A stretch of 64,000 nt of DNA from Brevibacterium sp. (GTDB taxonomy: Bacteria > Actinomycetota > Actinomycetes > Actinomycetales > Brevibacteriaceae): assembly GCF_031179145.1 (NCBI RefSeq), contig NZ_JAPSIB010000004.1, positions 124,001 through 188,000 on the forward strand. Direction: 5' to 3'. Positions 12,130 through 50,854 of this stretch are shown piece by piece. Under the pieces are notes generated by a model. That model did not search any database, was not told the origin of the DNA, and saw nothing but the letters and a program-made list of their open reading frames with translations. How positions within the stretch are numbered: the stretch's first letter is position 1; each line of letters opens with the position of its first letter. Both the position numbers and the translations under genes were made by a program.

Positions 12130-13083
12130 TCAGGACTGTGCGGACTCGGTGGAGTCGGCACCGGCTGCCGCGGGCTCCTGCGCTGCCTCTTCGGTCTCGG
12201 TGGCTCCCGCGGGCTCCTGCGCTGCCTCTTCGGTGGAAGCGGCTTCCTCGGGAGCAGCTTCGCCGGCTTCTGCCGCTTCACCGGCAGGGCCTTCTTCACC
12301 GGCAGGGGCGCTGCCTTCGAGCAGTTCGCGCTCCCACTCCGGCATCGGCTCGACGGCGGAGACGTTCTTCTCGCCGCCCTCGTCCGGGGAGGAGTGACGG
12401 GCGATGAGGCCCTCGGCGACCGCGTCGGCGATCACGCGGGTGAGCAGGGACACCGAGCGGATGGCGTCGTCGTTGCCCGGGATCGGGTAGGTGACGTCAT
12501 CGGGGTCGCAGTTGGTGTCGAGGATCGCGATGACCGGGATGCCCAGCTTCTTCGCTTCGTCGACGGCCAGGTGTTCCTTCTTGGTGTCGACGATCCAGAC
12601 AGCGGACGGAGTGCGCTGCATGTCGCGGATACCACCGAGGGTCTTCTCCAGCTTGTCCTTCTCACGACGGAGAATGAGGAGTTCCTTCTTGGTGTGACCC
12701 GAGCCGGCAACGTCGTCGAAGTCGATCTCTTCGAGTTCCTTCAGGCGAGCCAGACGCAGCGAGATGGTCTGGAAGTTGGTGAGCATGCCGCCGAGCCAAC
12801 GCTGGTTGACGAAGGGCTGGCCGACGCGCTTGGCCTGCTCGGCGATCGATTCCTGTGCCTGCTTCTTGGTGCCGACGAAGAGGATCGAGCCACCGTGGGA
12901 GACGGTTTCCTTGACGAACTCGAAGGCGTTGTCGATGTAGCCCAGCGACTTCTGCAGGTCGATGATGTAGATGCCGTTGCGCTCCGTGAAGATGAAGCGC
13001 TTCATCTTCGGGTTCCAACGACGGGTCTGGTGTCCAAAGTGGACGCCGCTGTCGAGCAGCTGGCGGATGGTGACGACGGCCAT
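12130..13083 (-). CDS. rpsB: 30S ribosomal protein S2
   Basis: Essential protein of the small subunit, needed for S1-type mRNA interactions. The start [20 protein letters not shown] follows AAAGGAG at good spacing; the frame stays open upstream but has no reason to be used. Core motifs include [29 protein letters not shown] and [19 protein letters not shown]. The 317 residues include an acidic Glu/Ala-rich tail of about 65 residues with [12 protein letters not shown] repeats, longer than in most relatives. Confidence 0.97.
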
Positions 13084-46942: not shown

Positions 46943-47072
46943 GCGCCGATCGCGCCAGAAGACGATCCGTCGTTCCGTGCCTCCAGAAGCACACGTTCGA
47001 CGTCGGCTTCTTCTGGCCCACCAGCACGGCGACATCATCGAACTCGGTGGCCGGTCTGATGACGATATCCAT
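46917..47072 (-). pseudogene. N-terminal fragment of a GNAT acetyltransferase
   Basis: ATG 47072 begins MDIVIRPATEFDDVAVLVGQ and KKPTSNVCF, which resembles the start of a common actinobacterial GNAT protein (RPAT.FDDV..LVGPK.P..NVC). After about 30 residues similarity ends and the frame closes at 46917. The remaining acetyltransferase core is absent, replaced by the zinc-ribbon sequence. It lies 55 bases beyond the mutM stop. Confidence 0.6.
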
Positions 47073-47127
47073 ACCTCGAGTACGGTCCGCCGAGGTGGAG
47101 GAGGGACCCCGATGGCCGTTGACACCG

Positions 47128-48078
47128 TCATCGATATCTCGGCGACTTCTGGCAGTTCGGGCAGAAGTGGGTGCCTCGACCGCCGACCGTAATCCTGACG
47201 ATCTCGGTGCTGCAACGCACACACTCCTGACCGCCCCGTCCGTAAGCGAGCAGCGCCCTGTCGAAGTACCCGGATTCACCATTGACATTGACGTAGAGGG
47301 AGTCGAAGCTCGTCCCACCCACCTGCAGGGCATCGTGCATGACGAGGATCGCCGATTCCAGCACCGAGGCGAGCCGTGACCGTCTGGTCCGGGACGGGTT
47401 CGCCAGGGGGTGGACGCCTGCCCGGAACAGGGCCTCATCGGCATAGATATTGCCGATTCCGCTGACGAGGCTCTGATCGAGCAGCGCAGACTTGAGGGCG
47501 GTGTTCTTGGCGGTCAGACGATCGACGACGGCCTCGAAGTCGAAAGCCGGTTCCAATGGATCGGCGGCGATATGGGTAGTGCTGGCAGGCACGAAACGCC
47601 CGTGCGACCAGGCCAGAGGCTGCACGCCGAGGTGACCAAAGATCCGTTGGTCGACGAAGCGCATCTCGAAGCGCTCGGGGCCTCTGCCCGCATCTCCGAC
47701 GCCCGCCGAGCCGCTTCCGGTGAAATCCGAGCCGAGCTCGCGTTCGAGGTGAAAGATCGCCCGAGTGTGCTTGTGCATCTCATCGGCAGCGGTCTGCACG
47801 CGAAACTGCCCGCTCATGCCCAGATGTACGAGCAGGCTCAGCGCCGGATCGCTCTCCCCCAACGTCAGCCACATGAACTTGCCCCGCCGTTCGGCGGAGA
47901 CGATGCGCAATCCGGCAAGACTCCGGCTGAAGGTCTCCTCCGCACCGACAGCGATGCGCCGCTGGGAGGTGGTGCCCAGGATCCGCGGGTCGATCACCTC
48001 GGCGCGGGTGATGGTCGCACCCGCGGTCCATTCGTGGACGCCGCGGCGGACGCTTTCGACCTCGGGCAGTTCAGGCAT
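47128..48078 (-). CDS. mutM: Formamidopyrimidine-DNA glycosylase
   Basis: Base-excision repair enzyme removing 8-oxoguanine and FaPy lesions. The start MPELPEVESVRRGV gives the catalytic Pro2 and Glu3; the conserved Lys is in RRGKFMWLTL, the helix-two-turn-helix in LLDQSLVSGIGNIYADEALF, and the C-terminal zinc finger in GGQECVRCS and HFCPNCQKS. At 316 residues it has a small Gly-rich insertion before ERFEMRFVD. It sits 39 bases after rnc, the usual rnc-mutM order. A partial copy of its last ~45 codons lies at 38171-38329. Confidence 0.96.
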   Translation of the reverse strand: MPELPEVESVRRGVHEWTAGATITRAEVIDPRILGTTSQRRIAVGAEETFSRSLAGLRIVSAERRGKFMWLTLGESDPALSLLVHLGMSGQFRVQTAADEMHKHTRAIFHLERELGSDFTGSGSAGVGDAGRGPERFEMRFVDQRIFGHLGVQPLAWSHGRFVPASTTHIAADPLEPAFDFEAVVDRLTAKNTALKSALLDQSLVSGIGNIYADEALFRAGVHPLANPSRTRRSRLASVLESAILVMHDALQVGGTSFDSLYVNVNGESGYFDRALLAYGRGGQECVRCSTEIVRITVGGRGTHFCPNCQKSPRYR

Positions 48079-48117
48079 CGCAGACCTCCGGGTGAGTCGG
48101 GCTCGCCACCCGCGGCC

Positions 48118-48822
48118 TCAGCGCCGGTAGTCGGGGTAGAGCATGCGGATCGCCTTGACGGCGACTTCCGCGGCTGCCGCCTCGGCGGCCTTCTTCGAGG
48201 AGCCATCGCCGGTGCCCCAGCCATTTTCACCGAGCAGGGCGGTCGCGGTGAAGACCATGGCATGGTCGGGACCCGACGACGTGATCTCGTAGCTGACAGC
48301 GCCGAGTCCCAGGTCCGCGGCCGCTTCCTGCAGCGTCGTCTTGTAGTCCATCCCCGCGCCGAGGCGGACGGCGTCGATGAGCATGTCGTCGATGAGACGG
48401 TGGACGAAGGCGAACGCCGCTTCGCGTCCGGAGGAGACGTAGGTGGCGCCGATGAGGGCTTCGACGGTGTCGGCGAGGATCGAGTCCTTGTCGCGGCCTC
48501 CGGTGAGCTCCTCGCCCCGACCGAGCAGGATGTGCCGGCCGATGTCGTGACGACGGGCGATCGACGCCAGCGCCCGGGTGTTGACGACGGCGGAGCGCAT
48601 CTTCGCCAGCTGTCCCTCGGGCAGGTCGGGATTGTCGTAGTAGAGCGATTCGGTCGCGACGAGCCCCAGTACGGAGTCGCCGAGGAACTCGAGGCGCTCG
48701 TTGGTGGGGATGCCTCCGGCCTCGAAGGCGAAGGAGCGGTGAGTCAGGGCAAGACGAAGAGTCTCGGGATCGATATCGATCCCGAGACTCTTCGTCAAGG
48801 CTGCTGTGGTATCAGTCTCCAC
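48118..48822 (-). CDS. rnc: Ribonuclease III
   Basis: Double-stranded-RNA endonuclease for rRNA processing and mRNA control. Catalytic signature [17 protein letters not shown], second acidic site [16 protein letters not shown], and a C-terminal dsRNA-binding domain ([35 protein letters not shown]). The 234 residues are normal. Codons ~10-24 ([15 protein letters not shown]) lie within a 44-bp perfect palindrome. The start is three bases after rpmF, with yceD-rpmF upstream, the widespread yceD-rpmF-rnc arrangement. Confidence 0.97.
48753..48796. promoter_or_regulatory. 44-bp perfect palindrome inside rnc
   Basis: Positions 48753-48774 and 48775-48796 are exact reverse complements of each other with no spacer; the centre is CGAT/ATCG. 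In RNA this gives a stem of about 20 base pairs with a four-base loop, placed within the first ~25 codons of the RNase III mRNA. Both DNA strands translate to the same peptide [11 protein letters not shown]. Proposed role as an RNase III self-cleavage site is inference. Confidence 0.9.
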
Positions 48823-48825
48823 AGC

Positions 48826-49029
48826 TCAGACGTCAGCGACCTTGCGTCCCTTGTACTCGAGGTACAGCGGGGTGCCGGCTGAGTCTTCGACAACTTTGGC
48901 CTGGTGAGGGCGCGAGTACACAACGCGACCGTTCTCCACAGTCTTGACCAGGTTGGGCGCCTGCGCCTTCCACTGCGAACGACGGTGGCGGGTGTTGCTG
49001 CGCGACATCTTACGCTTGGGAACAGCCAC
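48826..49029 (-). CDS. rpmF: 50S ribosomal protein L32, zinc-free form
   Basis: The 67 residues start [20 protein letters not shown], typical of actinobacterial L32. No Cys is present, so this is the C-minus paralogue type that does not need zinc. It lies two bases after yceD and three before rnc. Actinobacteria can carry a second, zinc-containing L32; none is in the window. Confidence 0.97.
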
Positions 49030-49031
49030 GT

Positions 49032-49550
49032 CTAGCTCTCTTTCTTCTCATCCAATAGGTCCTTCAGTGCTGCGAACGGCGATTCTTCCTCGCCGACCTC
49101 ATCGTCCGGGTCTTCACCCAGAGTGAAGCTGAACTCCTCGCTGTCGTCCGCAACCGGACTGAACGGAAGAGCCATCACCACAGCATCTCTGATCGCGGGC
49201 TCGAGGTCGAGCTGATCACGGTCGATGACATAGGAGTCCTCGTCGCCATCGGCCTGCTCATAGACGTACATCTCATTGATGTCGACATCTATAGGCAGCT
49301 CGATTTCGTCGAGCGTCCGCACATCTTCGCCGCGGGCCACAGCCGAGACACTGCCCGACACGTAGATCCCCTCCGACACACTCTCGAACATCAGCTCGAG
49401 CGCCAGTGGGGAGCCTTCGGCGACCCCGATCACTTCGATCTTCAGATCCGCGGGAGCAGGCAGGGTCGTGTTGACCCTCTCCCATTCACCTGGTCGACCG
49501 AGCAATCCCATGGACCTGAGATCGTAAACGAACTCTGATCGCTTCTTCAT
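49032..49550 (-). CDS. yceD: YceD/DUF177 protein lacking its Cys motif
   Basis: Conserved protein encoded with rpmF and linked to 23S rRNA/L32 assembly. The fold is recognisable ([69 protein letters not shown]). Where the family normally has a Cys cluster (CxxxCxGLCPxCG) this one reads [19 protein letters not shown]; the protein has no Cys at all. The ATG at 49550 follows GAGGAGG. The C-terminus is acidic and ends [14 protein letters not shown], as in relatives. Confidence 0.93.
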
Positions 49551-49666
49551 GCTCGTCCTCCTCACGTGAAATAGGAAGCTGCTCCAGCTTCACACGCGAC
49601 TCACCATTCTAGTCATGAAGACCGGTCAATACCAACTGCCGCCGAGGTGGTCGAGTGTGCTCCTCA

Positions 49667-50854
49667 TCACCATCTTTCATATCGGTGGCGCCACGTCACC
49701 GAACCGGCGAGGACGAGCAGGGCCCCGGAGATCGTGAACACGATGCCCGATCCGGCGACGAGGGTGAGCAGCGACGCCGCCGAGGGGATCGCCACCTGGC
49801 TGAGCCGATTGCCGGCCAGGCGGATGGAGAGCACCGCGGCCCGGTTCGCGGGGTCCGACAGGGTCGAGACCCACGTCATCGTCAGCGGCTGGGTCAGCCC
49901 GAAGCAGAACCCCGCGACCAGCAGCAGGATCGCCAGGGCCCACGGTTCGATGAGGAACGGGATCGCGATGACGCAGATCCCCGCCACCACCGAGGCGGTC
50001 CACAGCAGCGACAGATTGTGCCAGTGACGCGTGAGGACTCCGATGAACAGGCGCGAGACCACGGAGGCCAGGGTCCGCAGGGTCAGCAGCCAGGTCACGG
50101 TGGTCACCGACAGACCGTTCTGCTCGCCGATGAGCGGCAGGTAGGCGGTCAGCAGGTCGACGGCGGCGAGCGTGGTCATCGAGGCGAGGATCGCAGGCTT
50201 CATCCCCCGCATCGAGAGCAGGGACCAGGGCGTGCGGACGCCCTTGGCCGCCTCGGCGCGGGAGACGTGCGGGGTCCGCCCGCGCAGCATGATCACGAGG
50301 CAGGCAAGGAGGGTCAGCGACGAGATCCCGGTCATGAACCACAGCGCCGTCGAGATCTGCGGGGCTCCGGCCGTGGCGTCGGCGACGAGCCCGGCGATGG
50401 GCAGGCCGATCGTCTGTCCGATCGAGACGCCGAGGGTGAGGTGGCCGAACTTCGCCGTCAGCCGTGAGGGCGGATAGCTCTGCGGGATCAGCGCCTGGGA
50501 GGCGACCGTGGTCAGCAGCTGTCCCAGGCCCAGACTCATCGTGGCGATGAGGAGCACGCCGAGGTTGCCGGCGACGGCGGCGAGGGCGACCGGGGCGATG
50601 GACAGGGCCGTGCCGGTCCACAGCACCGCGGTGGCATAGCCGCGGTCGACGAGGCGTCCGACGAAGAGCGCGGTCAGCAGCGGCACGAGGGAGTAGCACG
50701 CGGTGAGCAGACCGAGGACGAGCCCCGAGCCGCCGAGCTCCAGAGTGCGGTAGGAGATGAGGACGCGGGCCCCGTTGTAGGTCGCATGGGCGAGAACGGT
50801 GTGGGTGACGAGACCGGCGAACCAGTGCCGGGACTGCGGGAGGGCTGCGCTCAT
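49667..50854 (-). CDS. MFS transporter
   Basis: A 395-residue, 12-helix major facilitator. Loop 2-3 reads GRLVDRGYATAVLW and helix 4-5 has LGLGQLLTTVASQ. The centre holds a basic loop (RGRTPHVSRAEAAKGVRTPW) and the second half VVSRLFIGVLTRHW. Substrate unknown. Its start is four bases after the coaD stop, so it shares that transcript. A decamer GCCGAGGTGG lies just beyond its stop. Confidence 0.88.
   Translation of the reverse strand: MSAALPQSRHWFAGLVTHTVLAHATYNGARVLISYRTLELGGSGLVLGLLTACYSLVPLLTALFVGRLVDRGYATAVLWTGTALSIAPVALAAVAGNLGVLLIATMSLGLGQLLTTVASQALIPQSYPPSRLTAKFGHLTLGVSIGQTIGLPIAGLVADATAGAPQISTALWFMTGISSLTLLACLVIMLRGRTPHVSRAEAAKGVRTPWSLLSMRGMKPAILASMTTLAAVDLLTAYLPLIGEQNGLSVTTVTWLLTLRTLASVVSRLFIGVLTRHWHNLSLLWTASVVAGICVIAIPFLIEPWALAILLLVAGFCFGLTQPLTMTWVSTLSDPANRAAVLSIRLAGNRLSQVAIPSAASLLTLVAGSGIVFTISGALLVLAGSVTWRHRYERW

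Follow-up and report, generated by a model that had tools for sequence, protein, structure and literature searches.

A conserved RNA hairpin in the first codons of rnc in Brevibacterium and other actinomycetes, a candidate RNase III self-cleavage element

The message of rnc, the gene encoding ribonuclease III, carries a conserved RNA structure at codons 9–24 in Brevibacterium. We read it as a hairpin in the coding region that RNase III would cleave in its own mRNA, providing negative feedback, and assign this reading a probability of about 0.65; the structure itself comes from the comparison of genomes, and from it we infer the cleavage. The hairpin was noticed in a 64,000-nt stretch of the genome of Brevibacterium sp. 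(contig NZ_JAPSIB010000004.1, positions 124,001 to 188,000; hereafter, the window).

In the window, rnc (48118..48822, minus strand, GTG start at 48822–48820) encodes a protein of 234 aa in which the RNase III domains and the dsRBD are both present (Pfam PF14622, PF00636, PF00035; TIGR02191 above cut-off). It is located 3 nt downstream of rpmF, encoding ribosomal protein L32 (48826..49029, minus strand; PF01783), and rpmF is preceded by a yceD-like gene (49032..49565, minus strand; PF02620), the first gene of a presumed yceD–rpmF–rnc transcription unit suggested by gene spacing. Downstream of rnc lies mutM (Fpg; 47128..48078, minus strand; PF01149, PF06831, PF06827). A perfect palindrome of 44 bp (48753..48796, minus strand) starts 26 nt behind the GTG codon and covers nt 27–70 of the rnc coding sequence; its arms (48753–48774 and 48775–48796, 22 nt each) are 100% complementary and have no spacer between them. 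These are exactly the coordinates given in the first-pass annotation, which also anticipated a stem of about 20 bp just behind the rnc start. In agreement with that, the palindrome taken as RNA is predicted to fold into a 20-bp stem with the 5' arm at 48777..48796, a 4-nt apical loop at 48773..48776 and the 3' arm at 48753..48772 (all on the minus strand). The predicted folding energy of the 151-nt region is –75.5 kcal/mol, compared to –47.9 ± 3.95 for shuffled sequences (z = –6.99).

The next-longest perfect palindrome of the window, at approximately 12987–13008 (centre 12998), has arms of 11 nt only. The 44-bp palindrome occupies one locus in the 3.83-Mb genome, the second match being its own reverse complement. 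A mobile or repeated palindromic element (REP-like) was rejected, given this single locus and the presence of these codons in relatives, which likewise leaves the origin by insertion, proposed as one option in the initial annotation, unsupported. The Rfam scan of 47000–50000 yielded no family at the gathering score, the only matches being two microRNA hairpins at 19.9 and 19.7 bits, far under the gathering scores. The peptide at these codons is conserved, as had been stated, and it is indeed encoded by both strands, the plus-strand open frame 47410–48882 reading it too; any palindrome placed in that reading phase would have this property, which therefore adds nothing further. The latter frame (490 aa, antisense to rnc and mutM) is most likely a side effect of GC-rich codon usage. 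One more predicted hairpin, of 7 bp (GCTGTGG/CCACAGC, 48803–48825, minus strand), surrounds the GTG start codon; its CTGTGG..CCACAG core is kept in 35 of the 36 rows L003–L038, and shows no variation by which the pairing could be tested.

Among the genomes compared, the perfect palindrome is peculiar to the source genome, and it is the stem that is conserved. rnc is present in 56 of the 57 genomes of the genus. Absence or lack of pairing of the palindrome in close relatives had been named beforehand as evidence against an RNA element: the perfect form occurs in none of the 55 other rnc copies of the genus, yet the stem is kept. For the inner 14 pairs in the 56 genomes, 721 of 784 cells are Watson–Crick, 61 are G–U, one is A–C and one is another mismatch. 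Two main versions of the stem are observed in the genus, AGTCTCGGGATC/GATCCCGAGACT and CGTCTCGGGGTC/GACCCCGAGACG, with a few mixtures; in L053 the pairing segments are GGCGTC/GACGCC, with Pro replaced by Ala. The stem is also kept in three genomes from other genera of the family, one of them having GGTGTC/GACACC with Pro replaced by Thr. At least 16 contiguous pairs are found in 52 of 54 genus genomes, with just 16–17 in 47 of the 54, as mismatches break the outer pairs. L058 (G049) has rnc as two separate reading frames, and in L055 (G034) the frame is shifted close to the 5' end; each may be a sequencing error or a real frameshift.

For the covariation analysis, 57 distinct sequences from this family and two others were aligned without gaps, and the window hairpin served as the reference. 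The inner 15 pairs are Watson–Crick or G–U in 844 of 855 cells. Over all 20 pairs, 89.3% of 1140 cells are paired, compared to 80.1 ± 0.6% after shuffling and at most 51.5% when the arms are slid; the outermost four pairs are the weakest, being unpaired in 15 to 38 of the 57 sequences. The number of cells changed on both sides is 116 vs. 41.5 in shuffled data, the covariation score is 0.331 vs. 0.160 (slid, at most 0.097), and both-side changes are seen in 11 of the 20 pairs (shuffled mean 8.3; 11 attained in four of 500 shuffles). As the alignment cells are not independent, changes were also counted by parsimony on a tree built from the remainder of rnc. For the inner 15 pairs (pairs 6–20) we obtained 21 double changes from one Watson–Crick pair to another, 17 single changes to G–U (plus one double), five changes from G–U to Watson–Crick, five changes to A–C and six to other mismatches; these counts are approximate, since the tree is based on a single gene, separates f6 from f1 and intersperses f8 with genomes that have no stem.

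The clearest case of covariation links codons 14 and 19: the free third base of the Gly14 codon is the complement of the first base of codon 19, be the latter Pro, Ala, Thr or Ser. The complementarity holds in 56/58, 6/7 (and one G–U) and 10/10 sequences of the three families, and in 15/43 (and five G–U) and 20/68 (and seven G–U) in the remaining samples.

Within rnc of the genus, the folding signal is specific to this place. Folding of codon-shuffled genes from 54 genomes of the genus yields a mean z of –4.19 at the scanning window containing the stem, the other 17 scanning windows listed being at –0.9 or weaker, and the stem position has p ≤ 0.01 in 51 of the 54. The minimum of synonymous diversity falls in the same place: in the 14-codon segment at residue 10 its ratio to the expected value is 0.35, compared to 0.74 gene-wide, the lowest of 212 segments. 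Thus, the low synonymous diversity and the compensatory changes, which the first-pass annotation had suggested looking for in relatives, are both seen, and together with the excess of G–U over A–C pairs they strongly support the RNA-structure half of its reading. A second minimum of synonymous diversity (ratio 0.44–0.49) is observed in the genus at residues 110–127. In scans of about 1.1 kb against dinucleotide-shuffled sequences, the stem position has a mean z of –7.5, and no other scanning window is under –1.5 in 22 genomes of the family (picked from 59) or under –1.3 in eight Streptomyces-like genomes.

The occurrence of the element in other actinomycetes was assessed by comparing the folding of the segment with that in 100 codon-shuffled versions of each rnc (about two matches per hundred at p ≤ 0.01 are expected by chance). 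At this threshold, the order sample of 60 genomes contains the structure in all seven members of family f6, in eight of ten members of f8 and in four of the 43 others; one f8 member, L079, has p of 0.3, that is, no excess over codon shuffles. In the class sample, it is found in seven of eight Streptomyces-like genomes and in eight of 60 others. Hence, among the sampled genomes that belong neither to the three families nor to Streptomyces, just 12 of 103 have the hairpin at p ≤ 0.01, and therefore the element is not universal. The stem is missing (p > 0.02) from 90 of the 128 actinomycete genomes sampled beyond the family, and 18 of these 90 have another scanning window with z < –3. In L130, L132 and L142 from family f32, the fifth scanning window of rnc, approximately 150–210 nt past the start of the tested segment, folds better than its codon shuffles (z of –4.7, –3.1 and –4.0, respectively); the element may have moved there in a lineage that lacks the stem.

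In Streptomyces the same rnc codons stand out: in eight genomes their mean z is –7.5, the next scanning window being at –1.3. The Streptomyces set was compiled from 80 named loci, mostly Streptomyces, which yielded 54 distinct 60-mers; S. coelicolor is not among them. Of the sampled genomes, L165 from family f31 encodes a product that matches the S. flaveolus and S. phaeofaciens proteins at all 220 residues compared. The consensus hairpin at these codons consists of 12 bp, a bulged base and 5 bp, and out of 918 cells 739 are Watson–Crick, 172 are G–U, four are A–C and three are other mismatches.

The proposed function is as follows. RNase III would bind and cut the hairpin in its own mRNA and so limit its own level. 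The 5' piece would retain the ribosome start and encode no enzyme, and the 3' piece, bearing a 5' monophosphate, would be degraded; a role of RNase J in this is suggested for S. venezuelae in the part of PMC12096830 available. The rpmF message upstream would be either spared or trimmed. A self-cleavage element is expected to be a long, mostly uninterrupted hairpin, and here 20 bp are predicted in the window. The initial annotation suggested that such a cut would directly destroy the message, which is plausible, with precedents in S. aureus and S. coelicolor (PMC3386247, PMC10126417, as far as the sections available describe them). Several points count against self-cleavage: the 16–17 contiguous pairs of most Brevibacterium stems (47/54) fall short of the length of about 20 bp that binding in vivo requires according to the excerpted text of PMC5775266, many other actinomycetes sampled have no such stem, and translating ribosomes would open the hairpin.

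An alternative that we consider unlikely is that the conserved RNA element acts on translation, slowing the first ribosomes or tuning the rpmF–rnc coupling, and is not read by RNase III. It agrees with the 3-nt gap between rpmF and rnc and with the position of the stem, 26 nt behind GTG or ATG in 44 of 55 genus rows listed. However, the spacing between the stem and the closest in-frame ATG or GTG varies: it is 11 to 44 nt for the listed loci of the family, f6, f8 and L111, and 71 to 89 nt for the three listed Streptomyces-like ones, and L053 and L067 have no such codon there; moreover, the stem is outside the normal initiation footprint. Long duplexes are a substrate of RNase III.

Still less probable is a processing site at which the rpmF message is released from that of rnc, making L32 synthesis independent of RNase III and the feedback on rnc a by-product. 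The gene order yceD–rpmF–rnc is in line with it, as is the cutting of the polycistronic rnc transcript of S. coelicolor by RNase III both upstream of rnc and inside it, described in the accessible part of PMC10126417. At the same time, a cut within the rnc frame, and not in the 3-nt gap, necessarily costs rnc. The 22 family genomes were also searched for an additional upstream structure such as that of S. coelicolor, and no scanning window from –880 to the stem has a mean z < –1.5.

A role of the palindrome as DNA, that is, as a binding site of a dimeric protein, a cruciform, or a product of template-switch correction of an imperfect palindrome, is very improbable. The 44 bp are perfect in this genome, template switching can produce paired changes without selection on RNA, and folding energies of the sense and antisense strands are alike: for the 60-nt segment, the sense strand is more stable in just 34 of 75 cases, yielding no strand difference. 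On the other hand, the palindrome occupies one place in the genome, and the pairing stays while the letters change, unlike an operator. The type of deviations is also informative, as selection on the rnc-sense RNA predicts G–U and not A–C, and neither DNA pairing nor template switching predicts such a bias. We observe 42 G–U vs. five A–C cells in the 57 distinct sequences, or 17 vs. five as inferred events (binomial p = 0.017). This excess points to the rnc-sense RNA and disfavors both an operator and template switching; together, covariation, folding and the G–U data place the selected structure in the sense RNA, with the energies of the two strands being alike.

Finally, the origin of the palindrome as a chance product of the peptide and codon bias has practically no weight, and is rejected by recodings, codon-shuffle folding and covariation: with amino acids fixed and codons sampled by the usage of eight genes of the window, 200,000 recodings have 12.3 ± 1.6 Watson–Crick pairs of 22, showing how much the peptide alone already contributes, but the maximum is 20 and none reaches the observed 22, and the stem is conserved with compensation.

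If the hairpin is indeed a self-cleavage site, it may have left a trace in the protein. We consider it an even bet that in actinomycetes changes of residues 12, 15 and 19 co-evolved with synonymous changes on the other arm, keeping the self-cleavage hairpin, so that the N-terminal sequence of the enzyme would be partly shaped by its own substrate, with the same codons used in a different geometry in Streptomyces. The hairpin is also a clean case of an RNA structure constraining the choice of codons and even of amino acids, as the Gly wobble base follows the Pro/Ala/Thr/Ser replacement five codons away. RNase III autoregulation has been known in single model species, the site differing in each; comparative genomics adds one whose covariation can be measured within a conserved coding segment, and its presence and absence across actinomycetes allow one to test when such feedback is gained, relocated and lost. 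In-gene cleavage is also predicted from it for Streptomyces, where antibiotic production is under RNase III control.

Self-cleavage of RNase III messages within rnc is already known as a kind. In the literature on RNase III autoregulation covered here, we found no description of this hairpin or its covariation, the 2008 map of S. coelicolor lying outside the comparison. In E. coli, RNase III cuts the rncO stem-loop in the leader near the 5' end and destabilizes its own message (PMC3386247 and PMC8708148, in the sections available); by contrast, the hairpin described here is made of codons and is in the coding region, not in the 5' untranslated leader. In S. aureus, the feedback operates by a cut at U+296 within the rnc reading frame, and the site is said to vary between bacteria (PMC3386247, same sections). 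This hairpin, like ours, is in the coding region, but the S. aureus site, as described there, is about 230 nt further downstream, in an irregular helix, and belongs to another phylum.

The closest system is that of S. coelicolor, where autoregulation of RNase III (AbsB) was reported by Xu, Huang and Cohen (2008), known to us via the portions available of PMC10126417, PMC5775266 and PMC2936110. There, rnc is in a three-gene operon with L32 (PMC5775266), and RNase III makes two cuts in its own polycistronic rnc transcript, one upstream and one at a stem-loop within the rnc cistron; the account in PMC10126417 places both in the loops of stem-loops and not in the stems, and its text at that point gives no coordinate. 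In S. venezuelae, a figure legend in PMC12096830 shows a predicted internal site, and the corresponding text states that the 3' half of rnc accumulates without RNase J; this accumulation would also fit a cut further downstream. As reported in these excerpts, the "loop" and "3' half" details make the link to our hairpin weaker. The systems also differ in that a second cut is described upstream in S. coelicolor, whereas here no upstream structure stood out, and in that the stem of Streptomyces differs in its letters and its centre and contains a bulge; hence, either the stem has slid or the two have originated independently. The likeness is in the arrangement: the stem-loop is here, too, inside the rnc of an rpmF–rnc unit, as seen from the gene order and the consensus hairpin, and Streptomyces rnc has a single outstanding predicted structure near the gene start, at the same codons as in Brevibacterium.
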